A stretch of DNA of 64,000 nt. Source: a virus. The notes under the pieces were generated by a model, which was given only the letters and a program-made list of their open reading frames with translations, searched no databases and was not told the DNA's origin. This document shows, in pieces, positions 36,927 through 58,329 of the stretch (the first letter of the stretch is position 1; every line of letters begins with the position of its first letter). The stretch lies in the IMG/VR virus record IMGVR_UViG_3300045974_000102, positions 1 through 64,000 of that record, one strand, 5' to 3'. Both the position numbers and the translations under genes were made by a program.

Positions 36927-37300
36927 TATTGATCAAAGACCCCGCCTATATAGAAGTGATTAAGCGCATACATTTTTGGTGTTACTCCCATGTCATTAAC
37001 CTTTCCCATAATCTTAGCATTAAATCTTCCACCTGTATGCTGGACATATACTAGTTCACCAGCTTCATATTTATTGCCTGCCATATAGTCATGTTGTGAG
37101 CACGATATGATAGCCTCAACTGCTGGATTAAAAGTGCCTTCTCTTTCTAGCACAACAGTAAAAACACCATGACCATCATCTATACTTTTTATTATACCTC
37201 TACACTGCTGAGGAGTATTGGTTGTATCTGTTGTGCGATTAAGCATGTCAATGCCTAACTCACTTACATCATTAAATAATCCTGCTATATTACCAGACAT
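36926..37300 (-). CDS. OB-fold-like baseplate spike component
   Basis: 124 residues. After a helical start (about 1-30), the sequence CRGIIKSIDDGHGVFTVVLE, then CSQHDYMAGNKYEAGELVYV, then RFNAKIMGKV has the strand order and polar turns of the OB-fold found at the N-terminus of gp5-type spike proteins. It follows the giant hub gene with a one-base TAATG overlap. A hub-to-spike adaptor function is inferred. Confidence 0.45.
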   Translation of the reverse strand: MSGNIAGLFNDVSELGIDMLNRTTDTTNTPQQCRGIIKSIDDGHGVFTVVLEREGTFNPAVEAIISCSQHDYMAGNKYEAGELVYVQHTGGRFNAKIMGKVNDMGVTPKMYALNHFYIGGVFDQ

Positions 37301-40300
37301 TATGCTTTCTCCTTACACCACTTAATTACAGCGTATCTCTTTTCTGCATAATTCTTCTCAACATCATAATTATGCTTTAGCTGCTTAGAGCTTTCGCCTT
37401 TAGGTATCGGATTGTTATCTGCATCAAAGCCTCTGCATTGCATACCATTATATCTCCAATAGCTTAGCTTATGGATAACCTCTCTCTTAGCCCAAGGATC
37501 TGTGCCTTTATATTCGCCCATATATCTTGTTTCTGCATCTATAGCTCTTTCTGCTATATGTTTTACACCAGCAAATATAACCCATTTTGCATACTTCACA
37601 TGATTATCACTTAAGTCTTCCCAGCTTCTTGGAAACGCAGGAGTCTTTGTTTTAATCCAATCTGCATCCTGAGCCATTTCACGAATAATCTTATCGACCC
37701 ACTCTTTACCATGAGAGCCATCTTGTCCAGCAGATAGTTGCATTAAGCCAATGTCGCTTGACTTAGCGTGTGCATTAAATGAACTTTCACACTCTATTGT
37801 TGTAGCTATCATTAATGGGTCTAGAAGTGGAGTTGTATTTTTATACTTATTAAAAGCTCCTAATACCCAACTGAACAATACTTCTGGTGTTGCTATATCT
37901 TGGTTCTTCTTGTTCATTTGCTCAAGCTTCCATTTAATATATTCAATCCCTTTACCTGGTGGCACAGCCTGTAGGTCAGCTAGTGATAGAGGTGTTCCAG
38001 GATATGCCTTTTTGAATTCTGATGGGCTCATGTCTGCCATAGCGCCTGGTAGTGGATTAACTACATTTCTATTTGGATTCTCAAGCTTAGATATTCCTGT
38101 CCAGTTGACTGAGGTGTAGTCACCTATCTGACGTAGTGTATTGTCAATTGTTTTCTTGTAGTCTGCTATAATTCCTTTACCAAACATGAATGCATCATTA
38201 TTTTTATAGCCTTCCATACCTTGCATTAGTAGTGAATTACGATACCATATAGGATGCACTATTATTGCATTATTCTTTGTGATAGACTTAATAGCCATGC
38301 TCTCAAACAACTGCGGTATCATCTCTATACAAGTAAGTAGTAAATATGCTATACCAGCTTTCATAGGAGCTGCATGGATGATTGTGCCAAATGGACTAAG
38401 GGCTAATCTTTCTCCAAAGCTTCTCTTCGCCATTGCAGTTATAGTTGCTCCAGCCTCAGCTTCTACAGCTGCGGCTACTGGTTTTGTGGTAAGCGCCTTA
38501 GCTAGGTCTGACATAAGATTTTTCTTCTTTAATAGATTACGCGCAACTGTTGATTCAGCCCCTGCTCCGAATGTTGCTTCTTCGAGAGCTTTCGCTATTT
38601 CTATTTCTGACATACCAAGTATTTCAGCACTTTCTTTCTTAAGTATCGTAGCTATCTGATCTATTAAACTCTTTCTGCTATGGGCTGCCCATTTCTCAGC
38701 GAGTGTAGTAGCAAAGCCTTTTACATTAGTTAGTATCTCTCTAGCCCTAAACTTAGCTCTTGCTGCGTTTCTGCTTAATACTCTTTGCTCAGCACTATAC
38801 ATCCTCTCTGACATTATAAATTCATCTGCACCTCTAAGCCAGTGCATTAGCCCGCCAAAGAAATAGCCAAACTCTCCAGCAGACACCATAGCATTAAAGC
38901 CCATTGCTTCTTTAGCTAACATAGGCACATATTCGTATTCACGTCTTTCCATAGCTGCAGTATCTGGATTTGCTTTTCTATTCTTTGCTTCATCACTACC
39001 TATGACCTGACTGATAAGAAATGCCCCACCTGCTATAAAGGCAAGTGCAGCTAATACCCAGACACCCATTGATCCTAGTGCGTATCCTCCTATTGCTTGT
39101 AGGACTCCTCCTACACCAATCGTGCCTATGTGTTCAAACATAATTCGTTTGAATACTTGTGCTGTGCTTAAATACGAGTCATGGTTGACTGAACATACTA
39201 GGTTAGGCACTATATGAGTTGTATAGCCCATCTCTGAGTCGAACTTATGTATAACAGTTTCTACTTCAACCCAGCCATACATCTTGTTTACTTTGTCAGC
39301 AATGTATATCTTATCATAAGGCTCTATTTTAGAATTGCCTCTAATAATAAGTGTGCCACCATATAATCTTTCAGCACCTTCTTTAAGTCTGCCAATAGCA
39401 TATTGATTAGCCACGTCTTCATTGTCTGTCCAGTTTATAGATTCGAACTTTTTAATTAGATATGTTGGATCTATATCTGCATCAATACAGAACTCAGTTA
39501 CCTTGTCTGAGTCTTCTACGTCCTTCTGGTTCTTAGCATACTGAACAGTTATATGATTCCACCCTCTGTCAGGTGTAGCCTTTATGCCATTGTGTATAAT
39601 ATCTTTAAATGACGATACCATATGGTGTTTCTGAAATGGAATAAATGGTGCTACTGCATTGAAGAATTTGGTGCCTTCAGCAAATTCACCATATCTATTA
39701 AGCTTTGGCCCTAAGTTCTTAATTGCTTCTCTAATGCCTTCAGCATACATATCTGTGCTTAGTAGTGACATTGAGGTTAAGGATGGAGCCATTGCTTGAA
39801 TAGGGTCATCTGTTCGGAAATAATTCCATTCTGCTGGACCTAAAAATAGAGTTGAGCGGTTTCCATAAGGTCTTACATCTAGTGCATAGTTAGGATAAAG
39901 GCGCTTAATGTTTTGTAACACATCCCATATAGTAGTCTTATTATTAATATTAAAGTTAACGCCATGCCATAACTTATTCCAAATGTCAGGAGCATAGATA
40001 TTGTCATCTATTGGATTGTTACCAGACTGGAATATCTTATAGAAGTGCTGTCCTATTTCAAGACTTGCCTTCTCATTATTATATAGGGCTCCAGCGAATG
40101 AGCATCCTATCTCACGGATACGTCCTGCAAGAACGCTTAGATAACCATGCTCACCTTGCTTGCCCCACCATTTATGCATAACTTCTTCTGTCCAGATGTC
40201 TGGCACATGTGTTAGTGGTTTATATAATGTTGCTATAGATGCACCTGCAGCAGTTAGAGCCATATATCTAAATAGTTGCTTAGGTCCGAGAAAGGCCGCT

Positions 40301-43300
40301 GTAGCTGAGATGCCTGCACCAGCACCAAATATAAGTCCTGACTTCCAGCTATCTTTAAACATTGCCATTACAGAGATATGACTGCGACCAAATCTTTCTA
40401 TGAAGCTTCCATATATCTGTCCGAAGTGTGCGACTTGTGGATTACTTCTTAATATCTTACTTATAATGTCTGCATAGTTATTGCCACTTATATTTTCTGC
40501 TCTTGATGATGGCGCAGAAATAAGTTCTCTTCCGTCACCATGAGCTTCTATCTCATAAATGTAAGTATCTTTGTTTCCACTTAACGATGTAATAGTGCCA
40601 ATAAATACTGTATCTAGCATTCTAGGATCTGTTGAATATCCAAGTCGAAGTGCTATTCTCATTCCAGTGCGCAAAGGAACTACAGATGCTCCATAAATAC
40701 CAGCTGAGCCGTCTGAGAAAATACGAGTGTCTTCTTCTGTGTCCTTGATATTCTGTGGTGAGTATGGGCTAGATCCTTCAAATACATTTCTAGATGTGAT
40801 CTGATTAGGTCTTATTTCTGTAGAAATATACTTAGGGTCTATAACAATCCTGCATCTTAATAAGTGAACAGGGTTGTTCTTATCTCTAATAACCATTAAG
40901 TCTTGGACGAGTCTAAAGTCATAATAGTCATCAAGTGAATAGTATTTATAATCAGAAGTATCTGATTTAATTACATAAAGCTTATATGTAGGGAATGCAT
41001 TCTCTAGGCCATCTGTAGGCATCATGCTTTTTAGGATGTTCTCAGCACTCTGATTAGCTGCTGACTTCATATCTGCATTAGTAACTTCACCACCAGTCCA
41101 TGGCTTATCATTACTCATACTATATGCGGCAGCTTGTTCAGTTAGGTTTGTTGTATCTTTTTTGTAGTAGTTATATATAGCCTTATCTACTGCATTAGTA
41201 GGCGTTGCAGAGGCATCAGATCCATAACCTGTAGAAGTAATCTGAGTTGCATCTATCATTGGTCTCCATGTGTTAGATTCAAACTCTGCTATGCTGCTCC
41301 CTTGGTAGCCTGGCATGCCATCTATCGTGTCTTTCCATAAGCCATTTAAATTACTTGGATCACTAGAGCCAGCTTTAGTAAATGTATTTATCCATACATC
41401 ACCTGATGGAGCCAGTGTGTCACTTGGAGAGAGCGTGAACTTAGTGCTATTGAAATCTCTAATCGGACCTTCGGCATTGAAAACATATTCTGAGACTGCA
41501 CCTATACTATCTGTGTAGCCCATAGAAGATAAATAGTATGCCGCTGGACATCTACTTAAAAGTCCAAGCTGTCCTTGGAGTTCCATTAGTGTTCCATATC
41601 TAGGCATTGGAGCGCCAAGCTTCGTGTTATCTTTTATAATTGGATGACAGTCAGATACTAGAGTTGAGCTTACAGGTCCTACTGTTCTGCCATCGGCTCT
41701 CTTAATAGCAATCCCTCTGCTATTTCCATCTGCTACATTTACAATATCGCCTTGCTCCTGCTTTTTATCATTATTATAAAGTCTGGCAGAGTAAGTAGAT
41801 GTAATAAATCCTTCTGCTTCTTTTCTAAGTGCATTCATCCTGCCATATGCACAGTCTGTAAGCATGCTTGTGCTAGTCAGACTTGTTGGTGGTCTATCTC
41901 TACCTTCTACTATAGATCTAGCCCATCCTGCCCATCCTATAGTTTTAGGATCCATCATAGCCTTGGTAAGTGATGATTCTTTTCTTTCATCGTCTCTAAC
42001 TACTTTGCCATCTTTGACATAATTAACATTCATATCTTTAAGTCTTGTTGGCATTGTGTTTGCTATAATAGGACTAAGTGGAGAGTCTTTATCTATAAGG
42101 TCTTTAAAGGTTGCACCTTCTTCGGCACTAAAGGATTCTCTTGCATAAACATTCTTCCATACTGTTGTGTTCATAGATGGAGAAACAAAGTCTACAACGT
42201 CTGTCTTAATTTTGTCAAGGAACTCATATAAGTTAGTTACTTTATAGTTAACATACCAATCGCCCATAGTGGCTGAGTCAAGCATAGATGCTGCTACAAA
42301 ATTATCAATCCATGGGAAATATCTATGGCCGCCCCATGGCTTAATTTTCATAAGTTCAGGTTCAAGGATTACTTCTCCTTCTGGAACTTCTTCTTCGGAT
42401 TGGTTTTCTACAGACTCGCCGTATGTTCCAGTGCCTTCAACTACGCCTCTTATTAGTAGAACATAAAGTGCTACCCAGCGCCTTACGCTGCTGTTAGTTG
42501 AGATGTCTCTTTCGCTCTTAATATCAACTTCTAGGATCCAGTTGCCGCTTACTCCATCTTCGCCTTCTGTTGCAAGATATTCTTTGCACTGGGTAGTCAT
42601 CTTACCATAATTACGCAAGATCGCGTGCTCTCTGTAGTCACCTTCGAAGTAAAAATATAGGGCTCTGCCATCATTTGCAAAAGCTTGTTTCTGGTTCCAT
42701 GTTTCTTCGAATGCATCTTTAAACAAAGCCATAAGTAATACTTTGGCATTCATTCTCTGTTCAGCAGTGGCGGTTTTATCAAGCATTGCTAACAGTTGGC
42801 CTTTAGTTATCGTGTTTAGGCCTGATGTTATATTCTTAGTAAAGTAACTTGATGAATATTCTGGTAGCTCAGCAAACTCCTCATCTGCAAAGCGAGACAT
42901 TTTATTTATTTGCCAATTCTCTAATGATTTAATTACGCCTACATTTGATTCTGGTAAAAGCAGTTTATCTTCATATATACCACCAGCTAAAGCTTCAGCA
43001 AAGGTTATGTTACCTCCACCCCACTCTGGATTTGTGCTTCTTATAAAGAACTTCCAATTATTAAATATCTTTGATTCGTTCCATCCGGCTTTACGACTTA
43101 CTACGTCAGTTACTAAAGCAAGGAGTTGGGCTATTTGCTTATATTTAGTTCTAGCTCTATTGTCTGTTACAGTGCTATAGAGCTGTGCTCTGCTATCTAT
43201 AAGGCCCATGATGCCAGTCTTTGGGTCGTCTGCTATAAGAAAGTAAGATGAAAGTATAGCCCTGGTAGCTTTCTTAAATACTGACAAGTCTGGTGGTATG

Positions 43301-45525
43301 CCATTGAATGAGTTCTTAGCCATCTTATCTAGAATATCATTCTCACCATCAGCTAATGAATTAGTCTTTTCTCTTTCAATAATTTTCCCAACTCTTGCCT
43401 TAACTGCTTCATCTGATTGGGCGATAGCTACTACTCTACTAAGCCCCCAATAGGAGTCTTGCTGAGCTGCTTTATTAATATAGCGAGCATTGTAAATATA
43501 AGACTCTTTTGTTAAAGAAAGATTTACATCACTTAAACCTGGGTGTCCATCAAGTGAGGTAATAATAGAACTCTGCAGTGTAAGAACTTCTGTCAAGCAT
43601 AGTTTGGTGACACCATTTGCTATTATGTATCTGCCATCATAAGTTCCATAGTTTGGACCTCTATCATATTCTGGTCTATAGGTCTTTAATACTTTACTAA
43701 TAGTTTCTGAGTTAGTTGTCTTGAAGTTAATATCTACGTTAGTTTCGCCTGGTCCAACATACTGAGCTGTTGGAATAGACATGCCAATGATAGGTATCCA
43801 TGCAAAGTTGTTTTGATATGTTACAGCAAGACTATGTGCTTCTTCTTCAATAGTCGAGTCTACAATTAAATTTAATCTTCTGGACATTTCTTCAGCTTGT
43901 CCATTGCTAGCTTCAACTGCCTGATGAAACTTCTCTCTATCTATTTTATGGATTAGTAGAGATGAGTCTTCTGCGAACCATACGCGGTCTGGGTCATTAA
44001 GAATTTCTTCAACGAATAAGTTGTATGGGTGTATCGCATCTTCTAGGACAAGTGTCTTAGGAATAGTTGCATCTTTTTCGTCTTTAATAGTTGTCTTTAG
44101 AGACAAGTCTTTTAACTGTGATATTGTTCTTGCATTCTTATCATACTTATAATATTCAAGTCTTTCAAATGTATCACCGTTGAAATATGAGTTATAATTA
44201 AATAGTGAGAACTGGAATGTTGCGCCTAGTGAGCCTGGGTGTCCATCTAATGTGTAGACAGTATAAGAGTCCATTGTAACAGGAATATAGTCTGTGCCAG
44301 CATATGGACTTAGTATTACATGTCCTTCTCCTATCAACTTTCCAACTAAGTCAACTGATCTAATAAGATTAAATGGACAGTATGTATACTGCACAATAAT
44401 TCTCTTTAGTTCATTGTTGATAGCCTCTTCTCCACTGAATATTACGTTCATCTTTATTGCAAGTCTATTCGTAGAGTTAGAAATTGGCTTAGACTCTCTG
44501 CCTAATATAGGGACGCTATATGTTGTGCGCATTTGAGCAATAGTCACGTGTGTAGGAGGAACCTTAAGCCACACGTCGCCTATCTTAATTATTTCAGTTT
44601 CACTATCACATTTAGATAAGATCTCTTGTCTTCTAAGATCATCCGTGCCATAGAGTTTATTAAAGTCTCTTCTGGCTGTATCTCTCATTGCAATAACAGA
44701 CTGATTCTGTGGAGTTGTAGGCAGAGCTGCTGCATTTGCTACATCTGGATTTAGCTTTAGGAATGCTGCAAATCTTTGATTTAGGTATTGTGGAGTAATA
44801 CTATTTACTGCATCTGCCCATGCTGGATCTTTTGATGGAAGCAATGGTATAGCTTTGCCTATATCAACAAGCATAACATTTAACTCTCCTCGTTGATCTG
44901 TAGCTATACCATAATCGTTTACGAATGGGAGACCTGTTATTGCTGTTTGATCTTCAAATGCTACCTGAGCAGGAGTTATGGCTCCAGTGCCAAGACTGTC
45001 AGTTCTTAGCTTCTGGATATCTAATACCATATTAGGATTTTTAAAACCTTCTTGTAAAGTTTCATGTAGAAGTATAGTGCCTTCTACAGCTTTACCAACT
45101 TCTGGAACAGCATTACCTTTTGCATCTACACCAGCAAGGTTGCTATTAGTGGTTATATGGGCAAGAGCAACTTGTTCGCTGCTGCCATCTGTATAAACAA
45201 GTTCAAGTTGAGTGGGTCCAGTTGCTTTAACAAAAGATACTATCTTGCCAGGCTCAACACCTTTTACTTGTTTGCTGTTAACCATTACAGTAGGATATGT
45301 ATTTATATCTCCAGAGCGATAAGCTTGATATGTTGGTGTGTCGACCTTATATGCAGCATGCTGAGCTATTGTTGCCATTGATGCTTTTAAATTTTGCGCA
45401 GTTGTCCCATTACCTGACCAAGCTGATGTTGAGAACTTCTTTTTATTTTCATCTAAAAGGTTGTAATTCCACACATTAGCTGCTACGGAACTTACACCAT
45501 CATACGAACTTTTTAAAATTGCCAT
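37300..45525 (-). CDS. Giant tail hub protein with C-terminal lytic transglycosylase
   Basis: 2741 residues, very large for a hub. The C-terminal about 200 residues are an SLT-type lytic transglycosylase: ATTIECESSFNAHAKSSDIG (catalytic Glu at about 2579) followed by LMQLSAG. Residues about 1535-1670 read as a gpD/gp27-like hub (AFPTYKLYVIKSDT, then RLGYSTDPRMLDTVFIGTIT, then IYEIEAHGDGREL). GWVEVETVIHKFDSEMGYTT at about 2095 recalls late-control D proteins. Membrane-like stretches occur at about 1700-1735 and 2132-2172. LDGHPG recurs near 425 and 658, marking a duplicated beta domain. The protein probably forms the tail tip that opens peptidoglycan during DNA entry. Confidence 0.8.
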   Translation of the reverse strand: MAILKSSYDGVSSVAANVWNYNLLDENKKKFSTSAWSGNGTTAQNLKASMATIAQHAAYKVDTPTYQAYRSGDINTYPTVMVNSKQVKGVEPGKIVSFVKATGPTQLELVYTDGSSEQVALAHITTNSNLAGVDAKGNAVPEVGKAVEGTILLHETLQEGFKNPNMVLDIQKLRTDSLGTGAITPAQVAFEDQTAITGLPFVNDYGIATDQRGELNVMLVDIGKAIPLLPSKDPAWADAVNSITPQYLNQRFAAFLKLNPDVANAAALPTTPQNQSVIAMRDTARRDFNKLYGTDDLRRQEILSKCDSETEIIKIGDVWLKVPPTHVTIAQMRTTYSVPILGRESKPISNSTNRLAIKMNVIFSGEEAINNELKRIIVQYTYCPFNLIRSVDLVGKLIGEGHVILSPYAGTDYIPVTMDSYTVYTLDGHPGSLGATFQFSLFNYNSYFNGDTFERLEYYKYDKNARTISQLKDLSLKTTIKDEKDATIPKTLVLEDAIHPYNLFVEEILNDPDRVWFAEDSSLLIHKIDREKFHQAVEASNGQAEEMSRRLNLIVDSTIEEEAHSLAVTYQNNFAWIPIIGMSIPTAQYVGPGETNVDINFKTTNSETISKVLKTYRPEYDRGPNYGTYDGRYIIANGVTKLCLTEVLTLQSSIITSLDGHPGLSDVNLSLTKESYIYNARYINKAAQQDSYWGLSRVVAIAQSDEAVKARVGKIIEREKTNSLADGENDILDKMAKNSFNGIPPDLSVFKKATRAILSSYFLIADDPKTGIMGLIDSRAQLYSTVTDNRARTKYKQIAQLLALVTDVVSRKAGWNESKIFNNWKFFIRSTNPEWGGGNITFAEALAGGIYEDKLLLPESNVGVIKSLENWQINKMSRFADEEFAELPEYSSSYFTKNITSGLNTITKGQLLAMLDKTATAEQRMNAKVLLMALFKDAFEETWNQKQAFANDGRALYFYFEGDYREHAILRNYGKMTTQCKEYLATEGEDGVSGNWILEVDIKSERDISTNSSVRRWVALYVLLIRGVVEGTGTYGESVENQSEEEVPEGEVILEPELMKIKPWGGHRYFPWIDNFVAASMLDSATMGDWYVNYKVTNLYEFLDKIKTDVVDFVSPSMNTTVWKNVYARESFSAEEGATFKDLIDKDSPLSPIIANTMPTRLKDMNVNYVKDGKVVRDDERKESSLTKAMMDPKTIGWAGWARSIVEGRDRPPTSLTSTSMLTDCAYGRMNALRKEAEGFITSTYSARLYNNDKKQEQGDIVNVADGNSRGIAIKRADGRTVGPVSSTLVSDCHPIIKDNTKLGAPMPRYGTLMELQGQLGLLSRCPAAYYLSSMGYTDSIGAVSEYVFNAEGPIRDFNSTKFTLSPSDTLAPSGDVWINTFTKAGSSDPSNLNGLWKDTIDGMPGYQGSSIAEFESNTWRPMIDATQITSTGYGSDASATPTNAVDKAIYNYYKKDTTNLTEQAAAYSMSNDKPWTGGEVTNADMKSAANQSAENILKSMMPTDGLENAFPTYKLYVIKSDTSDYKYYSLDDYYDFRLVQDLMVIRDKNNPVHLLRCRIVIDPKYISTEIRPNQITSRNVFEGSSPYSPQNIKDTEEDTRIFSDGSAGIYGASVVPLRTGMRIALRLGYSTDPRMLDTVFIGTITSLSGNKDTYIYEIEAHGDGRELISAPSSRAENISGNNYADIISKILRSNPQVAHFGQIYGSFIERFGRSHISVMAMFKDSWKSGLIFGAGAGISATAAFLGPKQLFRYMALTAAGASIATLYKPLTHVPDIWTEEVMHKWWGKQGEHGYLSVLAGRIREIGCSFAGALYNNEKASLEIGQHFYKIFQSGNNPIDDNIYAPDIWNKLWHGVNFNINNKTTIWDVLQNIKRLYPNYALDVRPYGNRSTLFLGPAEWNYFRTDDPIQAMAPSLTSMSLLSTDMYAEGIREAIKNLGPKLNRYGEFAEGTKFFNAVAPFIPFQKHHMVSSFKDIIHNGIKATPDRGWNHITVQYAKNQKDVEDSDKVTEFCIDADIDPTYLIKKFESINWTDNEDVANQYAIGRLKEGAERLYGGTLIIRGNSKIEPYDKIYIADKVNKMYGWVEVETVIHKFDSEMGYTTHIVPNLVCSVNHDSYLSTAQVFKRIMFEHIGTIGVGGVLQAIGGYALGSMGVWVLAALAFIAGGAFLISQVIGSDEAKNRKANPDTAAMERREYEYVPMLAKEAMGFNAMVSAGEFGYFFGGLMHWLRGADEFIMSERMYSAEQRVLSRNAARAKFRAREILTNVKGFATTLAEKWAAHSRKSLIDQIATILKKESAEILGMSEIEIAKALEEATFGAGAESTVARNLLKKKNLMSDLAKALTTKPVAAAVEAEAGATITAMAKRSFGERLALSPFGTIIHAAPMKAGIAYLLLTCIEMIPQLFESMAIKSITKNNAIIVHPIWYRNSLLMQGMEGYKNNDAFMFGKGIIADYKKTIDNTLRQIGDYTSVNWTGISKLENPNRNVVNPLPGAMADMSPSEFKKAYPGTPLSLADLQAVPPGKGIEYIKWKLEQMNKKNQDIATPEVLFSWVLGAFNKYKNTTPLLDPLMIATTIECESSFNAHAKSSDIGLMQLSAGQDGSHGKEWVDKIIREMAQDADWIKTKTPAFPRSWEDLSDNHVKYAKWVIFAGVKHIAERAIDAETRYMGEYKGTDPWAKREVIHKLSYWRYNGMQCRGFDADNNPIPKGESSKQLKHNYDVEKNYAEKRYAVIKWCKEKA

Positions 45526-45537
45526 TATAACCTCTTG

Positions 45538-48500
45538 TTAGGAGTATCTATACATATCTTCTTTATAAGGATTTGAACCATCTTGGCGGGTATGAACTGT
45601 ATTATATCCTCTGGAGGATACAATGTTTCCTATTGTTGACATCGCTTCTCTGCTGTCTGTTAATAAGTTCATGCTCGTATTATAATTTGCTTTGGTCTGT
45701 AAAGTTCTCTGTGAACCCATTTGAGAGCGTGGTGCTTGGAACGCTGGATTGTTTACTGATGGTAAATCATTTGGATCTTCAATAGCTCCATCGTCTGTTG
45801 CTAAATTCCACATAGCTAAGCCTGCTAGTGCTGCAGCACCTGCCCCTATCATTCTTGGTAGTGTGACATGATCCTCAATAAACTTCCAAGCCTTATCAAC
45901 TCCAGCGAATTTCCTTGACGGTGGCACATAAGATCTTCTGAGCGTCTCAGCTACAGTCATTTCAATATTAGCATCTATAAGTTTAGACCTGTGCATGTGA
46001 TCCATTATAATTTTAGGTATATCTTCTTTATTAGTTTTACCAGTTTCAACTCTCTTAGCTAGCGAGTTAAGCATGCCGCCTATACTGTCAGATGTTCCAG
46101 CCCCAGCTCCTTCGTCAATACCCTTAGAGAGCATGTTAAGGAAGCCACCATTGAAACCAAGTGCTTCTGCTTCGTCTTTGCTAAACTGTGATGCTATAGT
46201 TGGTGTATTTTTGATTGCTCTCTGATACTCTGCGAATGCATCTTCTACCTTAGTTGTGGCACCTGAATATCTGTGAGCTACACCATACTCGTCGAAATTA
46301 AGCTCTCTGATATTATATGTTAGGTCAGCTAAGTGATTAGAGGCATTCCACATTTCTGTGCCTCTAACTGCATTTTCTGCCATCCATGATGTTCCACTCT
46401 TTCTTGCTGCTATAGCTGCATGAGCTAAGATGGGGCTCATCTCACCGCCAGAGTTTCTAAGTAGATTTACATAGCCTTCATCTGTAATATTGCCCATAGC
46501 TTTAAGCACATTATCCATAGTAGCCTCGACTCCATTGGGGCCAAGGATAGACTGTATATGCTTTGAACTAATAATGCTCTGCTCCCAGAACTTAGGGACA
46601 AATGTATGAATGAATGTTCTATATTTTGAGAATGTGTCTTCAGCTATTCTGCCATCTACAAGTCCTTCAAGGCCACCTTTCATCTGGAATGTCTGCGCAG
46701 AGAATGCACCTGTTAGGCCTTTAGTAAGCCATGCTGCTATACCAGTATTAACCTCAAGATGGGAGGCAGATTCGAACATTGCCTCAACTTCTTTATCTCC
46801 CATTTTTGCAAATGATTGGAATCTCATATCTGGGAATAGAGTGCCAATTGCACTTCTGTTTCCTGCTGCGTTCATAAAGTTAAAGACAGTCTTCTGGTTA
46901 CCATTAATTTCAGCAAGTCTTTCTGCTTTAGCTTTGCTGCCAAACAGTGTGAGTAATTGTATTTTATCACCGTCATGGTCAGCGTTCATAAGTAGTCTTT
47001 GTGCATGACCTAGTGCTAAGCTCTTGCCTTGTATCGGATTCTTTTGATCCCAGTCTGGGAAGATATTAGCTAGTGCCATACTCTTGGCGTAGATAGCAGG
47101 GTAACGTGTGACCATGCCAGTTAAGCCTTCTTTATCAATTATATTCATTGCCTCTTTGGAATAAAATCCACCACCACCATCTAAAAATTTATTTATATAC
47201 CATTCTAATTCTTTACCTTTAGCAATTTTAGCTTCTGCCATCATACTGCCTACTGTATGTAGTGTATCATTTTGCCAAGCAAATAGACTCTCTCTTGATT
47301 CTATTCCCGCCACATCTAAGTTCTGCTCAAAGAAGTTTCCTTCACCAAACCAGTCTCTAAGAACATCTTTTACTTCTACATTATTGCTTTCAGCTGCAGA
47401 CATTGCTTCAGATAACATTTCATCTATTGAAGCCGCATATGTTTCTTTTGAAACTTTAGTTACATTACCTATTGCGTAATGTAGGTCTTGAGCTTCTTGC
47501 CAATAGGATGCCTTATCTTCTACCATCTTTTCAAGCTTAGTTAATGGTGATGACTTCTCTGATAAGAAGTTTACATCTGGAGTATTCATACTATAATAAG
47601 CCCCAGGGACGTGTAGTGATGCTTCACGTAGGATGCCGCCCTTAGTTGAATGTCCATGAATATCTACAGCATATGCTAAAGCCTCTAGTCCACTTTTGCT
47701 TAATTCTCCTTGTGGTGAGTTAACTACATCATTAAGTAGCTCATGCACTTTCCATGAGAAGTCGCTCAATGCTACCTTATCTTCTTCAGGCATATAGTAG
47801 CCGCCTTTGAAGTAGTCATTGCCTGGTATAAAGACTTGTCTGTCATGTGCCTGTAGTAAGAAGCCGTTTGGATTATTGTTTGAAGATAAGAATGAATCCA
47901 AGAAATGTAGTGGATCCTGAATGTTTCTTCTGGCTTTATCGCCATATCCATAAGGTCCCATTATTTTCTTTAGCTCTTCAACATCAACTAACTTGGCATC
48001 TGTAAACGCAGATACATCTTCACCTGCAATAGACATCTCCATTAGGCGCTGTTGCTCCATAAGCCTTGGTGTGTCTATTATACTTCTTAGAGACAGTTCT
48101 TCCATGACACCAGGAGTGTCTCTTAGATACTGCATATCTCTAAATCCTATACGCATTGTGTTACTGCCTATGCCTTGCGCAAGAGATTCAGTCTCTTGTG
48201 GCGAGAAGCCAGTCGCAAGCCAGAAGTTTGTATCTAGACCCTCTAGCGCATGGTAATCATGCCCAAATTTACGTTCATAATTTAAAAAGCCTCTCTGGCG
48301 CATCTTATTATAGTTACGAGGACCTAGTCTATTTGTGGCATATTCTAGTCCTTCGAAAACTAACCTTTCAGTATTCCTGTGCGCTAGTATCTTAGCCTTT
48401 CCAGTTGTATTAAGCGCATTTAAGTCTTCAACAACTTTTTCTCCCATATAACCTAGGTCATCAAGTGACCCTATTGATGTATCCATTCCAGCATGCCTTT

Positions 48501-50883
48501 GCAAGCCAACTAGGTTTTGCACATCAAGAAATTGCTGCACAGGGTTATCGCTTATCTGAAACTGTAGTCCCTCAGTCTTTGCAATCTCACTGAGGTTAAG
48601 ATCGCCTGTGCGGTTGCCAGTAAGGTATTGTGAGAAGCGTGACGCTGCATCGCCTGTAAGAGTTAAATTATTGTCTAGAGCAAGTAAGTGTCCTCTTAGA
48701 GCATCTTGCATAAATGGTAGAGCTGCTCCTACATTCTTTCCAATAACTTCTGATGTCGGACCAGTACCGCCTTTCGGGCCATGAATAGCAAGTAATGCTT
48801 TCTCGTAATAGTTAAGAGACATTCTAAATTCATCTTTCCCAGGTGAGTACATCCTAGTGACAGCAGCACGCGTTGACTGGCCATGAGCTAAAAGCTTAGT
48901 TGTGTCTTCTATATATTTGCCGTGCAAGATCCAGCCATCATAGCCAAGCTCTTGGCGTAAAGCTCTAGACTCAAGAGTCCGTAAGATATCTTCTTCGTCT
49001 TGCTCAAACATTGCTTCTGCTCTCACTAAAGATTCTCTGCCTACAATTTCTTCGTCTTTAGCTATATCACCTGTGAGCTGTCTACCTACTCTATTGACTC
49101 CAATATGTGTGCCTTTTTTCATTGTTAACTTCTGAACATCTATGTCTCCAGCAGCTATCTTCTTATATACACTACCTATCGAGCCAACACGTCTTTCGCC
49201 AGATTTAGTTATATAGTTGACTTCAGCTTCCTCAGCATAGAAGTTTTCAAACTTTACTTTTTTATATGTACCATCTTCCTGCATTTCTTCTCTATATTCT
49301 AATTTTGGCACAGTAAGTCTCTTAATGAAATCATCTACATATATATTCTTTCCTCTCTTAACTGACAAATCTACCCATCTAGATACTTCAATAGCCTGGT
49401 CTGTTGTAGGGTCTAGTGTGCCTAATAGATTAAGATTTCCACCTAGTCTCATATGCTGTAGGTGTGGACTTTCCATGTAGTTATTTGTAAACATGCCTGG
49501 GTTATATCTTGCTTGTGTCGTGCCGAAGTAAGACGGCTTGTTACGGTTAGCGAATGATATTCCTTTAAATGCCTTATCGCCTTCTGCTTGGTAGATGCCA
49601 TATAGGTTTTCTCTAGCATTTGCCGATAAGTCTGCTACCTGCTTCTGCGGACCTACAAATCCGAAGTGTTTCTGTAGAAATGATTTAGTCTTTTGGAAGT
49701 TAGGGTTTACTGCCTTTGCTCCCATGGTCTTTGTTTTGAAGGTCATTAGGTCTGGGTTGCCACGGATACCTTCACCCATCCCATACAATAGTCTTTGGAT
49801 ATCAGGATTGAAAGCATCTTCCCCAGGACGGAATGAATGCAATTGCGATGTGCCCATAGCTACTGAGTCAATGCCTTTTAGATGTGCCTTATCGCTTAGC
49901 TTTAGTCTACCAAAGAATGTTGCTTCGAGCTCTGAGCCTGCTAGTGCTTCTGCTGCGGGATTAACACCTTGGATGTTCTGAGCTGTTTCAGTTGCGCCCT
50001 TTAATACTTTAGCAAGCATCCTTGCTAGATTGGTTTGAGAGCCAACAAGACCAGCCTGCTCTCCTATAGTAACGGCCATCATTTTCTCAATATCGCTCTT
50101 AGTAACGCCTTTGCCTTCTAGGCTCTTGTAATAGTCACGTGCCATGTCAAAGTCTAAGCTTCCAACAATACCACGCTTCTTTATATCCCTAAGTGACTCA
50201 AGGATATGAGTGTTAGGATCCATTACCTCAGCACCAAGACCTTTGGGTGTGTCTACTATATCGTATTTCCTTGAGTGCACCCATCTTGAATGTGTGCCTT
50301 CTTGTATCCTTGTCTCTACCCACGCTTTAGAGCTCTCATCGTATTTCGAGAAGGGCACATTAAGTTTATATCCGCCTACGTCTACGATAGCATTGGTGCC
50401 TTGGAAGCCTTCAAATCTTCCCTTGATACCTATACTCTCAAGTATACCCATAAGCTCCTGACCGATAGGGCTGCCCTCTTCATCAACTACCTCTTCTAGC
50501 TTATTGAAATACTGCTTACCAGCTCTTCCTTTAGATGCGCTTAGCTGTGCAGCATCAAGGTCATGTCTAATAAGTTCATACTTCTCAGCATTTTTACCAG
50601 CTAAGTCTTCTCTGAACTTATTTAGGATCTTGTTCCTTGGGTTAGCTTTCGCAGAGCCAGTAGACATTGCCTCATACATTCTATCAGCTACCTTAGCTGA
50701 TGTGCTTTTCTCAGCAGCAACTTTAGGATATATAAAGTTGACAGCCTTTGTGCCTACTTCCATAAACTTCTTTTTATCGTAAGCATAGAACCCAAGTGCT
50801 GCTGCACCTGTGCCTAGAATGCCAGCAGTCATTAGTGAGCCAAGAGTGCCTGAGTCTTCTTCATATGGGCTGTTCGGGGTCAT
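45538..50883 (-). CDS. Giant virion-cluster protein with RNA polymerase beta/beta-prime-like core
   Basis: 1781 residues. Membrane-like segments lie near both ends (about 10-34 and 1675-1695). Residues 1260-1325 closely resemble the beta-prime catalytic barrel: TRYPAIYAKSMAL (R1260, P1262, S1268), a 30-residue spacer, NADHDGD at 1300-1306 matching the metal-binding NADFDGD, then KIQL and KAKAERL, recalling residues after the triad in multisubunit polymerases. Beta-like two-lysine candidates lie upstream: K695 with HGPKG at 701-705, or HGHSTKGG at 1076-1083; the latter's spacing to the triad better fits known single-chain enzymes. Encoded between tape measure and hub, it is likely packaged. 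The motif match is seen; polymerase activity and ejection are inferred. Confidence 0.6.
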   Translation of the reverse strand: MTPNSPYEEDSGTLGSLMTAGILGTGAAALGFYAYDKKKFMEVGTKAVNFIYPKVAAEKSTSAKVADRMYEAMSTGSAKANPRNKILNKFREDLAGKNAEKYELIRHDLDAAQLSASKGRAGKQYFNKLEEVVDEEGSPIGQELMGILESIGIKGRFEGFQGTNAIVDVGGYKLNVPFSKYDESSKAWVETRIQEGTHSRWVHSRKYDIVDTPKGLGAEVMDPNTHILESLRDIKKRGIVGSLDFDMARDYYKSLEGKGVTKSDIEKMMAVTIGEQAGLVGSQTNLARMLAKVLKGATETAQNIQGVNPAAEALAGSELEATFFGRLKLSDKAHLKGIDSVAMGTSQLHSFRPGEDAFNPDIQRLLYGMGEGIRGNPDLMTFKTKTMGAKAVNPNFQKTKSFLQKHFGFVGPQKQVADLSANARENLYGIYQAEGDKAFKGISFANRNKPSYFGTTQARYNPGMFTNNYMESPHLQHMRLGGNLNLLGTLDPTTDQAIEVSRWVDLSVKRGKNIYVDDFIKRLTVPKLEYREEMQEDGTYKKVKFENFYAEEAEVNYITKSGERRVGSIGSVYKKIAAGDIDVQKLTMKKGTHIGVNRVGRQLTGDIAKDEEIVGRESLVRAEAMFEQDEEDILRTLESRALRQELGYDGWILHGKYIEDTTKLLAHGQSTRAAVTRMYSPGKDEFRMSLNYYEKALLAIHGPKGGTGPTSEVIGKNVGAALPFMQDALRGHLLALDNNLTLTGDAASRFSQYLTGNRTGDLNLSEIAKTEGLQFQISDNPVQQFLDVQNLVGLQRHAGMDTSIGSLDDLGYMGEKVVEDLNALNTTGKAKILAHRNTERLVFEGLEYATNRLGPRNYNKMRQRGFLNYERKFGHDYHALEGLDTNFWLATGFSPQETESLAQGIGSNTMRIGFRDMQYLRDTPGVMEELSLRSIIDTPRLMEQQRLMEMSIAGEDVSAFTDAKLVDVEELKKIMGPYGYGDKARRNIQDPLHFLDSFLSSNNNPNGFLLQAHDRQVFIPGNDYFKGGYYMPEEDKVALSDFSWKVHELLNDVVNSPQGELSKSGLEALAYAVDIHGHSTKGGILREASLHVPGAYYSMNTPDVNFLSEKSSPLTKLEKMVEDKASYWQEAQDLHYAIGNVTKVSKETYAASIDEMLSEAMSAAESNNVEVKDVLRDWFGEGNFFEQNLDVAGIESRESLFAWQNDTLHTVGSMMAEAKIAKGKELEWYINKFLDGGGGFYSKEAMNIIDKEGLTGMVTRYPAIYAKSMALANIFPDWDQKNPIQGKSLALGHAQRLLMNADHDGDKIQLLTLFGSKAKAERLAEINGNQKTVFNFMNAAGNRSAIGTLFPDMRFQSFAKMGDKEVEAMFESASHLEVNTGIAAWLTKGLTGAFSAQTFQMKGGLEGLVDGRIAEDTFSKYRTFIHTFVPKFWEQSIISSKHIQSILGPNGVEATMDNVLKAMGNITDEGYVNLLRNSGGEMSPILAHAAIAARKSGTSWMAENAVRGTEMWNASNHLADLTYNIRELNFDEYGVAHRYSGATTKVEDAFAEYQRAIKNTPTIASQFSKDEAEALGFNGGFLNMLSKGIDEGAGAGTSDSIGGMLNSLAKRVETGKTNKEDIPKIIMDHMHRSKLIDANIEMTVAETLRRSYVPPSRKFAGVDKAWKFIEDHVTLPRMIGAGAAALAGLAMWNLATDDGAIEDPNDLPSVNNPAFQAPRSQMGSQRTLQTKANYNTSMNLLTDSREAMSTIGNIVSSRGYNTVHTRQDGSNPYKEDMYRYS

Positions 50884-50892
50884 AATATATCC

Positions 50893-53800
50893 TTAATATA
50901 AATACTGGAACTGTGATAGTAGAATACCACCATACTTATCGTATCTCTTTCTGACACGATGATCTTCTTCGTCTGTTGTCTCTTCTAAGTGCATCATAGC
51001 ATTAGGTGATGTTACTGGTGCGCCGTGTGATGATTGTATAACGTCATTCTGTGCTATATATGGCAGTATCTCTCCCGTCATGGTAGCACTTGTATTATGG
51101 ATAGAGTTTATGTCAATAGCTGATTGATAAGCTCCTGGGCTATAAACTGCTCTTACTAAGTGGTCATCGAAGAAGCCATAGTCTTCTATTTGTTCGCCCT
51201 GGTCTTTAAGTGCCAACACTTCTACTTTTTCAATGTCAACGTCAGGTGACCAGCCAAGCCAATCAGTCCCTGGAAGAGCATGACTATTAGAATACTGCTG
51301 AATAATCTTTGAGCGTGCCCAGTCGCCTCTTGTAATGCCAGTGCCATCAGTCTCGTGCATATACTGACGAATATCACTATCAGATAGATCGAAGGCTTCG
51401 TTTGCTTGTATCTCTGCAAATTCTTCTCTATCTCTTTCAGAACCTGCCTCTGCTAATCTCTTTGCCCATAGACCCTTATAAAGACGCTTAGATGCTTCTG
51501 GTAAGAACTTAAATATTTTGCCACGCTTCTCTGGACTGCTTTCATTTGCAAAGAAGTCAAAGTATGCTCTTTCGTTCTGTGGCAATGCTGTTAATTCATC
51601 ACGTAAGCTGTTATCTGTTGGATCTGCACCTATCATAGTAGAGCGCCACTTAGCATGGTAGAACTCTGCTTCTTGATAGTCGCCAGCGTCAGAAGATTGG
51701 TTAGCTAGCATCTTATATTTTAGATATTTGATTATATCCCAATACTGCTGCTTCTCTCTTCTTTCTGCTGTAAAGCTTGGTATAGTATCAATACCGAATA
51801 CGCGGTGTCCTATATTTGCTATCATAGGCTTTAATAGATGTTCGATAGGGTGCTGCCAAAGTCTTACTTCTTTACCAAATACTTGATAGTCTAAATAGTT
51901 AGTGAGATAGTCTCTATTAGGGATAAGTTTTCTATCCCAGAAGGTAGACTTATCTGTCATATTTTCCCAGTAGCCAGCGAGAAAAGTATTATAAGAGCCT
52001 ATCTTATCTTGCGCTAAGTTGTGCGAAGCTAGATTACCTGTATCTGCGAAAGGAGATCCTTCGTCCCACATATCTTCTTGCATGCCGCTCACATAAGCCT
52101 CAAGCCCTTTAGACATGTCTGGCATTGACTCTGGAGCAGCAACTTGCATATCTATTCTTTTGCCGGGCGATAGATGAGAAGCCATTGCGCTCATAGAAGA
52201 CTTCTGTATTTCTAAGGCGTCATTTGCTAATTGGCTTGTGTCATCATATCTAAACTTCTGAAGCAGTCTTGCTCTAATGTCCTGCACTCTATTGGATACG
52301 CCAGCCGCTCTATATGTAGTCTCATCTCCTTCAAGGCCAAACTCACCAGTTTCTAGGTCTGCCCAGTCTACTACACCTGAGCGATCTTCTGTCGCTATGC
52401 TCTGAGTATATTCTTGAGAATGTGCAAAGATCTGCTTCTTTAACTCACCAACTTGAGTTAATGTATCATAGTATCTCTGTTCTTCTGCAGGAGAAAGGTT
52501 GTTCCCTATTGCTAGCTGCAAAACGCTAGCTGATGTATTTCTAAATTCTGACGAGTATGGAGCTATCTGCTGTAAGATTTCAAGTCTAACTGGATCTGGA
52601 TACTCTTCTAAGTCCATTCCTTTAACTTCAGGAAACAAGAACTCCCAGCCTTTACGTGATGTCATTAACCAGCCCTGTGGAGCCTTATCAAATGTGGTGC
52701 CATGCGTATAGTCAATGCTTTGTTTGCTTCGCTCTGAGTTCCATATATCTTCTTCTCTTTGAGGTATCCAGTTAACACCAAATAGCTCATTTGGAAGATC
52801 GTTGATTGTCCACTTAGATCTCGGATTAGTAAACACACGACGTAAGAACTCGCCACCTATACCTGTAATATCTCCAGCTCTCCATCCCCACATGATCTGT
52901 GCTGGATCATACATTGCTGAAGCATCTGCTTTTCTTGGGACATAAGAATCAATACCCTTCTTCCCTGCAGCAAACTGATATAGAGAGCGGAACATGAAAC
53001 CTTTGAAACCAGAGTATTCAGTTCCTTGATCCCACATCTTAATCATATTCTGTCCGAATAGATTATCAGATCTCTTCATAGCCTCATAGAGCTGCGGTGT
53101 AGAGTCTATAGCAGAGTTGTTATGTTGAATATCTACAGCTAGCCTTAAGTTCTTAGCTACTGCTCTTTCATAGTATTGGTCGGCCTTATCATCTGGGATG
53201 CCTCCACCACCAAAGAAGTTAGGCTTTATGCCACGAGAGTCTAACTCATCAAATACTCTCTGCATTTCCGCAGATGGGTCATTGAAGTAGTTATCGGACC
53301 TTACGCGCAAGAAAGACCAGCCCTCTTGTTCAAGTTCCCTTTGTCTCTTAGCATCCTTAATCTTCTTCTTGCCACTATGGAAAGATACACCGTCAGCTTC
53401 AAGGGCAGCATATTTACTGCCATCTCTAATAACCATATCTATATAATAATTACCTTCATTTATCTGCGGGTAAACATCATAGCCCTGAGCCTTAAGTGAT
53501 TGATAAATCCCTCTTTCAAAAGGATTGCCTAATTCGCCTTCGCCTGGCTTATGGTATTCTTTCTGAGGTTTGATTACTCTACCTATTGTTGCAGCGATGA
53601 GTGGCCCGAGCAAAGGTATGTTCTGTCCATATTGGGATGATTTATATACCGGTTGTGATTCAGCGTGGTAGTCCTCTAGCATGTATCTATCGAATAGGCC
53701 GAACGTAAATGAGTTGAGTAGTCTATGTCCATAGCTCGGATAGATAACTCCCTTGTTTTGCCAGTCAGACTGTATAAGATTTAATGCCTCTCTTCTGTAT

Positions 53801-56800
53801 TGGATTACTTTGCCACCCTGATATGGCGTTGGCGATAAAATCCATCCTCTATTTTTTCTTACTTCAATATCTCTATTGCCATTAATAATAGCCTTACGTT
53901 CTTCATAAGTTTTATTAGAGCCTAAGAAGCCAGGTAGAAATGGGATCATAGGGGCCATTAAGAGGCCAAATGCTGCAGTCTTTGGGTTTTGTATTAGCCA
54001 ATTGAATGCTCTTTGAGAGCCAGTCTTAGTAACAGCGCCTACAAACTTCTCTGGCCTTAGAGCTTGTCTAAGCCATGGAGCAACTTGTATATTAGATTTA
54101 AGTAGATCTCTACCTACTTTATCAAAAGATCTTCTAATATAAGATGGGCCTGTCTTATATAAGTGTTGAGCAAATAAAACTGTAGTAGCTGCACTAATAG
54201 CTGGAGCTAAAACACCTAGACCTGTAGATCCTGGAGCAGCTTGCTCTTGACGCTTTGCCATCCTCGTTAAGCCAAGAATATCTGATATCTTAGAATATGC
54301 TAGCTGAGCTTTGTGATAAGCAGCTATAGGAAGCCCTGTAAGCGGTCCTGAGCCTTTATCAAACGTTAAGGCACCTAACATATGGTTTGCTAAATCAAAT
54401 GCCTTGTAGGCCGCATATGCTGGCAGAATACGCTTAATGCCAATGTCCATGAAGTAGCGAGGAATGCCACCCTTCATATCATATACAGGTAGGCCTAAGT
54501 GTGGCGCATTGATAAATTCAAGAGCACGACCAGCCATAGTGTAGATTGGGTTATGAGACTTAGTGAGCTTGTCTATTGTCTTGCCCATGAATTTGTTGTC
54601 AACAAATAGAACCTCGAATGGAGTTTCAAGGAACTGGTTCATAGGGTTAATAGTTATTTCTCTAAAAGCCTTGCCCCAGTGGCGAGCCATTTGATGGATG
54701 CCTTCTTTGCTCCATCTCTTTGCGCCACGGTAGCTCTGAACAAGAAGTGCTGTGTCTGCATCTCTTGTCATTTTGCCCATGTTCTTATAGAGTAAGTTAG
54801 TGCCGCCACCAATGCCTTTAGGTAGCATGTCAAGGTGCCATTTAACTGTCTCAATTGCTTTCCATATAGGTTGGAAAGTTGGGTTGCGTTTCATGAAGTC
54901 AGATTTTCTTGCTGTCTTTAAATACTCATCTAGTGGTATCTTATAGGATGCTCCTGATCTGACCAAAGATTCTTGAACTCTACCAAATACAATTGGGTTA
55001 ACTTGTCTAGTAAACTCTCCAGTTGCTCTATTAAAACTATTAACATTCTTGGCGCTAGCTGTTCTTAATTTAGATATATTAAGGTTTACATCAAGGACAA
55101 ACTTGCGTCCCATTCTATCACCATTAAGACTTTGATTTATAGCGTTAGATGCTTCGTCAAATTCTTGATACCATATTACTGCTGCACCATTAGGTTGTGT
55201 GCTTATCTTAATTATGTTCTTCTTAACCTTATCTGGTATTCTAGTAGGCTTAAGTATTTCAGATATTTCATCAAAGACTTCTGGGTTAGTATCTTGTATA
55301 GAGGCTAGTAGGTCATCAACAGCAATGCCATGATCATGTAAGCCTCTGATCCTCCCGCCGTTGATAGTAGAAAATCTTTTCCATTTACCACTAAGTTGTC
55401 CAGTTGCTTCATCAACATCACCTATAAATCTCTGTGACCCTCTACCCATATATTCGTGCATAGATGAAACGCGAAAGAGTCTGAATGTTGGCACAGCAGC
55501 TTCTATTTTTCTTGCGCCATAAAGCATAGTGCGGCCAAGCATTGTCATTGCTTCGCCAAGATTTGTTGGTATAACTTTAGACTTATGTGCCCCAAGTAAG
55601 TTTGGGTCATGTAACATTGCCGAGAAACCTACTGACCATAATGATAAGCCTGCTGTGAAGCCAAGTGCGCCAAGTCTGCCTACCATAGTAAGTGCACTAG
55701 CGCCGTCTGCTTCATTACCAGATGAATAAGTTTTATATTCATTAGATATACCAGTCTTGTTAAAGCTCATACTACTGCTTGAAAGCTTTTGTTTCTTATC
55801 TCCACCACCAAAATAAGTAGCTGCACCAAGTAATGCAAAGACACCAGCTAAGCTTGAATATTGAGCTATCTTAGTTGCAGCTCTATTGTGCTCCATGAAG
55901 TTCATGGCGTTGTGAAAAAATCCACCGCCTCCACCTCCTGCACCTCCACCTCCACCAAACATGGAAGGTGTAAAGCCACCTGACTTAGATGCATATATAG
56001 AAGAGAACCCTTTCTTTATACTGCTTGTTCTTTTGTCTATTAGACCTAGCATTTGTTGAGTAAGCTCTGAGACACTATAGCCTTGCTTCTGAGTTTCACG
56101 CTCCATAACATTTTGGAAAGCCTGATGTAAGAACTGGCCACCAATATCAGATCGTAATACCTTATCTATACCATGTTTTAATTCGTCTCCATGATTGCCT
56201 TTTGTGAGCGAGTTCTTAAACTCATCCATAACATCACCAAAGGCAGCTTTTAGTGCAACCTCAAGGCGTGTATCAGCACCAGCTACGTGTAATTCTTTTC
56301 CATTAAAAAATGGCTTAACTTTACTATGCCAGGAGAATAGATTTGCTACATCTTCAACCTTCCAAAATATAGCGTGTTGGAATTCTTCAAAAGTATTAGG
56401 CGCTCGCGCTATTCTGCCTGCAGTCTCTTTAAAGGCGATTGGGTTAATATTAATTGTTAACCGCTCCATGATATTTCTATCTTCTTTAGCAAGTCTGAAA
56501 GCTAATAGTTGCCAATCATGTTCAGCACCTATAAAATTAATTTTCCCTGCTTCATATAAACCTTTAAATCTTTCATAAGCTTTTTTATCTCGCTTAGCAA
56601 GCTGAACAAGCATTGCTGGAATATCGAAGTCTGTATTCCAGGTCATTATATTTTTAACCTTGCCAGCGGTAGCATCATTCATTAGATTATCTAAAACATT
56701 AAACAAGCCTTGCTTCTCTGCTTTATTATAAAAAGCTTCTTGTGTCATAGATTTCATTTCAATGTTGCCGTTCAATCCTTCAAGAAGGGCTTGAACCTGG

Positions 56801-57348: not shown

Positions 57349-57910
57349 CTACAAACTCCCCATTTGGTCCCATATCGTTAAAGTAATTTGCAACAGCTTT
57401 AAGTTCCTCAGGCGTTACTGACTTAATACCCTTTTTAGGCTTAGAGCCACCTTTCTCTGCAGAGAAACTCTCACGCATCTTATTGGTATCTATGGCTGGT
57501 TTGCCTAATACAGCCTCACTAAAAGCAAGCTCTTCCATAAGTTCATTAAGTGTCATCTGTTTTAAGTCTTTAAGTGTATATGTAGGCTGTGCTTGTATGA
57601 TAGCTCTGTAGAACATAAAATATAAGCTGTTTTCTACATTTGCACGTGCCTTCTCAATTAGCACTGGCACATCAGTAAGCTTCATTATGAAGCCCGATAG
57701 TTTCATTGCGCAGCCTACTACTGCAAGGATAGCACCTGCTTCCAGCTCTTTAGCATTATATTTATGGTCTGTTATTTCGTTAAAGATAAATTCTTCAGTA
57801 TTAGGATTTTCTTTAAGTAGAGCAGCACTGAACCTATCTGCTTCGTCAGCAGTTAGTGTTCTGAATATAATGTCTGTAGAGTCTGCCAGAGGAAGTTTAT
57901 ACTTCTTCAT
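57335..57910 (-). CDS. Tail assembly chaperone, second
   Basis: 191 residues, its own GGAG ribosome binding site before ATG at 57910; its end overlaps the tape-measure start by 14 bases. Composition is mixed helical, with a middle segment AILAVVGCAMKLSGFIMKLT and a Lys-rich C-terminal linker (SAEKGGSKPKKGIKSVTPEE). Two small genes directly before a tape measure gene are typically its assembly chaperones. In many phages the second is made by frameshifting from the first; here an 11-base gap and a separate ribosome binding site make independent translation more likely. Confidence 0.6.
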   Translation of the reverse strand: MKKYKLPLADSTDIIFRTLTADEADRFSAALLKENPNTEEFIFNEITDHKYNAKELEAGAILAVVGCAMKLSGFIMKLTDVPVLIEKARANVENSLYFMFYRAIIQAQPTYTLKDLKQMTLNELMEELAFSEAVLGKPAIDTNKMRESFSAEKGGSKPKKGIKSVTPEELKAVANYFNDMGPNGEFVDGSF

Positions 57911-57921
57911 GAAAGCTCCAA

Positions 57922-58329
57922 TTATGTTTCTAAGATTAGTTCAAGAGCCTTGTTAGGATCTTTAAGGAAGTTGCTTACTGCTAGGATTTGATAGACCAGT
58001 GTGAGGACTAGTCCTGCTTCTAAGGACTGTATGAGCACAGCTTCTGGCTTTGGATGGATTAGTGAAGCTTTAAGGATAGCTTCATGTGTAGACATCTTAT
58101 CTAGGTTTGCTCTCCTGATATCAGCGAACTCTGCCCATGGTAGATATTTATACATAAAGAATTGTAGTTGATCTGCCGGACCTAAGAATGTGCAGTAGAC
58201 ACGCTTATTAAAAGCCTTAGCTCTTTCAAACTCAGGCTTGGTCATTTTGTAATAAGCAATTTTGTCCCAGTTAATTTCATCGTAAAGTGATTGTTTAACA
58301 TCTTTTACTTCTTCTAGCTCTTCACTCAT
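57922..58329 (-). CDS. Tail assembly chaperone, first
   Basis: 135 residues. An acidic N-terminus (SEELEEVKDVKQSLYDEINW) precedes helical sequence (LQFFMYKYLPWAEFADIRRA) and a hydrophobic segment near the end (EAGLVLTLVYQILAVSNFL). The size, helical content and place between a tube-like gene and the second chaperone fit the first of the paired tape-measure chaperones. No sequence family named with certainty. Confidence 0.55.
   Translation of the reverse strand: MSEELEEVKDVKQSLYDEINWDKIAYYKMTKPEFERAKAFNKRVYCTFLGPADQLQFFMYKYLPWAEFADIRRANLDKMSTHEAILKASLIHPKPEAVLIQSLEAGLVLTLVYQILAVSNFLKDPNKALELILET

Follow-up and report, generated by a model that had tools for sequence, protein, structure and literature searches.

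Tail-borne and two-barrel RNA polymerases of phages

The concept of a tail-borne RNA polymerase is already known from the Thermus phage P23-45, whose gp96 is presented as a virion RNA polymerase fused to the tape measure (PMC10770324; PDB entries 8h2n and 8h2m); in the account given there, this virion enzyme transcribes the gene of a second, non-virion one. Phage 0305phi8-36 encodes an RNAi-polymerase-like protein, gp99, which its genome description places in the non-structural right arm (PMC2147016), and the listing given in a survey of 224 jumbo phages has two-barrel polymerases only in group 1 of that survey, 0305phi8-36, and c-st (PMC7824862). Single-chain two-barrel polymerases further include YonO of SPbeta and gp66 of the crAss-like phage phi14:2, the latter a virion enzyme.

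The window analyzed here comprises bases 1 to 64000 of a virus record of 115,882 bases (39.6% G+C). On its minus strand, adjoining the tail hub gene on the upstream side, lies an open reading frame (45538..50883) for a giant protein of 1781 aa, P0001, a candidate virion RNA polymerase. In our assessment, P0001 is probably a single-chain, highly diverged two-barrel DNA-dependent RNA polymerase, contained in a giant protein beside the tape measure or serving as the tape measure itself, and ejected from the virion. Similarly to P23-45 gp96, it is a giant protein encoded in the tail module and contains a polymerase motif of the DxDGD type, and this phage has a candidate for the second, non-virion polymerase that is found in P23-45. 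However, P23-45 has a long tail without a contractile sheath, and the motif regions of gp96 and P0001 show no significant sequence kinship. The initial annotation had proposed a polymerase family embedded in a myovirus tail module; the novelty extends to the P0001 family itself but not to the concept, for which P23-45 gp96 is a precedent (PMC10770324). Phage 0305phi8-36 is comparable in having a two-barrel-type polymerase together with a related tail module, but the counterpart of its gp99 would here be the second polymerase-like gene (see below) rather than P0001. With YonO and gp66, P0001 would share the single-chain two-barrel organization, although its family profile, compared up to E = 10, matched beta' subunits in the PDB and no such single chain. 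With the virion polymerases of N4 and T7-like phages, which have another fold and other motifs, it would share the idea of an ejected polymerase; as had been expected, there is no sign of kinship to the T7-like enzymes. No paper describing the P0001 family was found in the open-access literature, including the available text of the P23-45, jumbo phage, and 0305phi8-36 papers; nor was such a polymerase seen in the survey of 224 jumbo phages, whose listing has two-barrel polymerases only in the groups named above.

Active-site motif and its conservation at the hub locus

The predicted catalytic barrel of P0001 is marked by the RxP motif RYPAIYAKS (residues 1260 to 1268; 47080..47106, minus strand) and by NADHDGD (residues 1300 to 1306; 46966..46986, minus strand), which contains the predicted metal-binding residues D1302, D1304, and D1306. 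The distance from the RxP motif to the triad falls within the 35 to 50 residues typical of two-barrel RNA polymerases. Both motifs are found at the residues given in the initial annotation, with the Asp triad intact. In 20,000 residue shuffles of P0001, the full pattern RxPx5[ST]..DxDGD appeared twice; DxDGD alone appeared in 3% of them, so that the bare triad is weak evidence, and it is the conservation of the motif that provides the strong evidence. A reading of the DxDGD loop as an EF-hand was rejected, as its Gly residue occupies loop position 4, not position 6 as in EF-hand loops. Used directly as a query, P0001 had no match in Pfam, PHROGs, the PDB, phage records, viral contigs, or genome contigs, and the peptide patterns chosen from it automatically differed from those that are conserved. 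A DNA scan with the exact NADHDGD codons returned viral beta' subunits and unrelated matches, with no tail relatives among them. The beta' subunits encoded in six viral contigs (L009, L012, L017, L021, L025, and L029) have NADHDGD instead of the usual NADFDGD.

Relatives were therefore sought not with the motif but through the neighboring hub gene, P0003 (2741 aa; 37300..45525, minus strand), which served as the anchor of the synteny comparison. P0003 matches the hubs of Acinetobacter phage ME3, Bacillus phage KLEB27-3, and Moorella phage MTATph1, and a search with the hub-domain alignment led to 14 viral loci, most of which again encode a giant protein directly upstream of the hub; a search of genome contigs with the hub gave no match. 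Four of these giant proteins (L047 to L050) are clear relatives of P0001, with E values from 5e-27 to 5e-89 and 25 to 30% identity. A second family, referred to here as KLEB-type, comprises proteins of 2260 to 2523 aa from L051, L052, L053, and L068 and gp034 of KLEB27-3, which its depositors labeled “structural protein.” In all nine relatives, R[YF]P and DxDGD occupy corresponding positions. The protein from L068 came from a pattern search that included the motif; the search from the hub yielded the other eight, which are distinct members of both families with genes directly upstream of it, and the retention of RxP and DxDGD in every one of them is accordingly independent of the motif. Conservation of the triad in homologs, on which the initial annotation had staked its proposal, is thus observed. 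Within a 211-residue stretch in which the other members are 21 to 28% identical to P0001, 18 positions are invariant in five relatives, including R1260, P1262, I1264, S1268, N1300, D1302, D1304, G1305, and D1306.

Departures from this pattern are seen at other loci. In ME3 gp036, the motif reads REP..GGDHDQD, that is, DHDQD replaces DxDGD, retaining the three aspartates and losing the glycine. HHalign did not establish homology of either the ME3 protein or those of L054 and L055 to P0001; accordingly, the ME3 protein was included by motif and synteny only, and L054 and L055 were treated as being devoid of the polymerase core. These two loci encode, near the same position, proteins of 1273 to 1441 aa without DxDGD (L054:12758-17083 and L055:2468-6289), which suggests that the core was gained or lost at the hub locus. 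In MTATph1, a pair of IS21-like transposase genes is inserted in the homolog of the giant gene (L032:12081-14323); the flanking parts, CDS27 and CDS31, remain, and no polymerase core is recognizable. This insertion is possibly a natural loss of the core.

Relationship to the multisubunit polymerases

A profile of a 73-column stretch was built from nine sequences (P0001 and the eight relatives found through the hub) and compared with all PDB chains up to an E value of 10. All 32 matches were the largest subunits of RNA polymerases, led by PHIKZ055 of phiKZ (E = 7.5e-4) and the beta' subunit of PBS2 (E = 2.3e-3), which agrees with the likeness to a beta'-type catalytic core originally proposed. 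With P0001 removed, the best E value was 2.5e-4; polymerases made up 30 of the 32 matches, and CysB (E = 0.9) accounted for the remaining two. The reversed profile, used as a control, had one unrelated match (E = 0.3). The five-member family of the window alone reached E = 0.46, with the phiKZ polymerase as the top match and in the correct place. In HHalign comparisons with viral beta' subunits, the window family gave E = 1.8e-6 and the KLEB-type family E = 4.9e-5; the joint profile of both reached 5.2e-6, versus 0.17 or worse for 20 column-shuffled controls of that profile. The Pfam domain PF00623 (Rpb1 domain 2), used in a genome search, fell exactly on the motif stretch in five relatives and passed the Pfam cutoff in one of them when summed with its in-frame neighbors; in a whole-library scan of the proteins of three relatives, it stayed under the cutoff, with E values of 7.6e-4 to 0.015. 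PHROG 2987, annotated as RNA polymerase beta subunit, matched L052 with E = 1.8e-6.

The sequence of P23-45 gp96 is present in the PDB copy used and was not matched by the family profile, and when the motif region was compared with gp96 by HHalign, the E values were 0.035 to 0.11, as opposed to 1.8e-6 to 4.9e-5 for beta'. The motif stretch therefore groups with multisubunit beta'/RPB1 rather than with gp96. The initial annotation had named YonO, gp66, and QDE-1-type enzymes as the relatives; instead, the profile is closest to multisubunit beta'/RPB1 (phiKZ, PBS2, and Pol I/II/V), and no QDE-1, YonO, or gp66 chain was matched at E = 10 or better in a PDB copy in which the presence of QDE-1 and gp66 is unconfirmed. 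The alignment with the multisubunit enzymes, such as PHIKZ055 and PBS2, covers the RxP and NADxDGD stretch over 50 to 65 residues; in contrast to those enzymes, P0001 is one giant tail-module protein whose remaining sequence cannot be aligned with theirs, and no other subunit-like genes were recognized beside it. On these sequence comparisons, we judge the P0001 family to be a new, deeply diverged family of the two-barrel type of RNA polymerases.

In addition to the beta'-type catalytic stretch (RxP and DxDGD), two blocks downstream of it are conserved. Aligned independently, the window and KLEB-type families have both blocks invariant and with equal internal spacing: K1388-x3-G1392 in P0001 corresponds to K2118-x3-G2122 in the KLEB-type family, and Q1435-x2-I-x2-K1441 corresponds to Q2176-x2-I-x2-K2182. 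In P0001, these blocks lie in AAWLTKGLTGAFSAQTFQ (residues 1383 to 1400; 46684..46737, minus strand) and QSIISSK (residues 1435 to 1441; 46561..46581, minus strand), respectively. Their order and appearance (AAWLTKGLTG versus GYLTRRLVDV of bacteria) are compatible with the K-x3-G block being the bridge helix and the Q-x2-I-x2-K block being the start of the trigger loop. Upstream of the RxP motif, the catalytic barrel may begin, by eye, at STKGGILREASLHVPGAYYSMN (residues 1079 to 1100; 47584..47649, minus strand), for which the beta' counterpart would be GKRVDYSGRS. Also upstream of the RxP motif, the KLEB-type family has GSAKMDMSGRFRIQGVSP, which resembles GKRVDYSGRSVIVVGP of beta'. For the second barrel expected of a two-barrel enzyme, with its two conserved basic residues, no unambiguous lysine pair of the beta type was found in the sequences compared; K663, R672, and K716 do not vary within the window family. 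AlphaFold2 predictions had very low confidence both for residues 480 to 1640 of P0001 (five sequences, mean pLDDT 41.9) and for a KLEB-type relative (four sequences, mean pLDDT 44.4).

Genomic neighborhood in the tail module

The minus-strand genes are ordered as two small ORFs, P0002, P0001, P0003, and the baseplate genes. The latter include a baseplate J protein (34881..36086, minus strand; E = 1.3e-10), which indicates a contractile tail and bears out the assignment to a myovirus tail module made initially. The two small ORFs (57335..58329, minus strand) occupy, judging by position only, the place of the tail chaperones gp143 and gp144 of 0305phi8-36 (PMC2147016). In the latter phage, the ORF directly before the hub is assigned, in the same description, as the tape measure (PMC2147016), so P0001 itself is possibly in the tape-measure position. 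Of the location “between tape measure and hub” that had been proposed for P0001, the adjacency to the hub thus holds and the tape-measure side is uncertain.

The upstream neighbor, P0002, is another giant protein (2151 aa; 50893..57348, minus strand), homologous to ME3 gp035, MTATph1 CDS26, and KLEB27-3 gp033. Its N-terminal part (56239..57348, minus strand) is a DEDDh-type 3'-5' exonuclease-like domain, whose residue set D20/E22, N238/D242, and H354/D359 is invariant in five relatives, and its residues 1277 to 1369 (53242..53520, minus strand) form an MTES_1575 domain of the restriction-endonuclease fold (E = 3e-22). Such a pair of nuclease domains is unusual for a tail protein. The polymerase-like proteins of the KLEB-type family have a DEDDh set at their own N terminus (L053:6754-13536, L052:9861-17432, and L031:7224-14528), and the PHROG 192 exonuclease matches L053 with E = 8e-6. 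The polymerase-like and exonuclease-like parts therefore travel together in the tail module in two arrangements. Each family has a complete DEDDh set, but the domains of the two families cannot be significantly aligned, and we do not claim that the domain moved between the proteins.

Possible function and alternative interpretations

By analogy with P23-45 gp96 as described in PMC10770324, P0001 is most likely a virion polymerase. Its presence in the virion is suggested by the location of its gene in the tail module and by the depositors' label for KLEB27-3 gp034. It would be carried in the tail and ejected together with the DNA, D1302, D1304, and D1306 would bind Mg2+, and the ejected protein could transcribe the first phage genes before the host polymerase or without it. 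The exonuclease-like and endonuclease-like domains of P0002 would be ejected along with P0001. A possible target of P0001 is the second polymerase-like gene, as in P23-45. About as likely as not is a more specific scenario, an independent origin in which a beta'-like catalytic barrel was captured into a giant protein at the tape-measure position of a contractile tail, with the exonuclease and endonuclease being co-ejected, and feeds a second polymerase of different derivation.

The same observations could be accommodated by a stretch that derives from an RNA polymerase in a protein that is now an inactive structural component of the tail, such as the tape measure, with the barrel kept as a scaffold. 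The placement of P0001 directly upstream of the hub, which is the tape-measure position in the description of 0305phi8-36, would suit such a role, as would the finding that P0001 and its relatives are best conserved in their last 100 to 115 residues (41 to 43%), the altered surroundings of the triad in ME3, and the unrecognizable core in MTATph1, L054, and L055. Nevertheless, the R, P, Gly, and three Asp residues of the motif are invariant across nine aligned sequences that share just 18 to 36% identity with the first of them, and a scaffold would have no need for a metal triad; we regard this alternative as unlikely. The exonuclease-like domain that accompanies both families, in P0002 or as the N-terminal fusion of the KLEB-type proteins, could also point to a two-barrel polymerase of another specificity, a PolD-like DNA polymerase or an RNA-templated enzyme, that might, for instance, repair or extend the ends of the incoming genome. 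That is quite improbable, as the signature is of the DxDGD form, with three Asp residues, and all polymerases matched by the family profiles in the PDB are RNA polymerases, with no PolD among them. Least probable of all, and very unlikely, is a chance resemblance or some other Asp-rich metal site, EF-hand-like or nuclease. The frequency of bare DxDGD among the shuffles leaves room for coincidence, but the conservation of the motif and the profile results with their negative controls already contradict it.

If P0001 is indeed a virion RNA polymerase, the carriage of a polymerase in the tail evolved on more than one occasion and drew on different branches of the polymerase superfamily, and transcription can begin without the host enzyme in a lineage that has cultured members (ME3 and KLEB27-3). 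P0001 would also offer a strongly reduced active site for comparison with the cellular enzyme, and a connection of transcription to DNA ejection would become testable in phages with contractile tails.

A second polymerase-like protein

Outside the window, the plus strand of the same record encodes another polymerase-like protein of 1021 aa, with the motifs GRNPMVGPGNAQ..GDEDGD (record positions 104979-108044 in G000; L004:3979-7044). It has no match of its own in Pfam, PHROG, or the PDB; in its relatives, encoded in G001 and G004, the motifs R[HN]P[MV]VGxG and GD[EF]DGD are retained. Among the proteins compared, its motif region is nearest to that of P23-45 gp96 (HHalign E = 9e-4), whose motif FRNPVMGHGGA..VDFDGD resembles this protein and not P0001. 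The protein is a candidate non-virion RNA polymerase, and it is plausible, given the P23-45 example, that the phage encodes both a virion and a non-virion polymerase. No promoter-like motif common to the upstream regions of the arm genes was found. Within the window, positions 285-1100 encode a 271-aa protein whose best Pfam match is DUF7018 (E = 0.017) and whose C-terminal part looks sigma-factor-like by eye.
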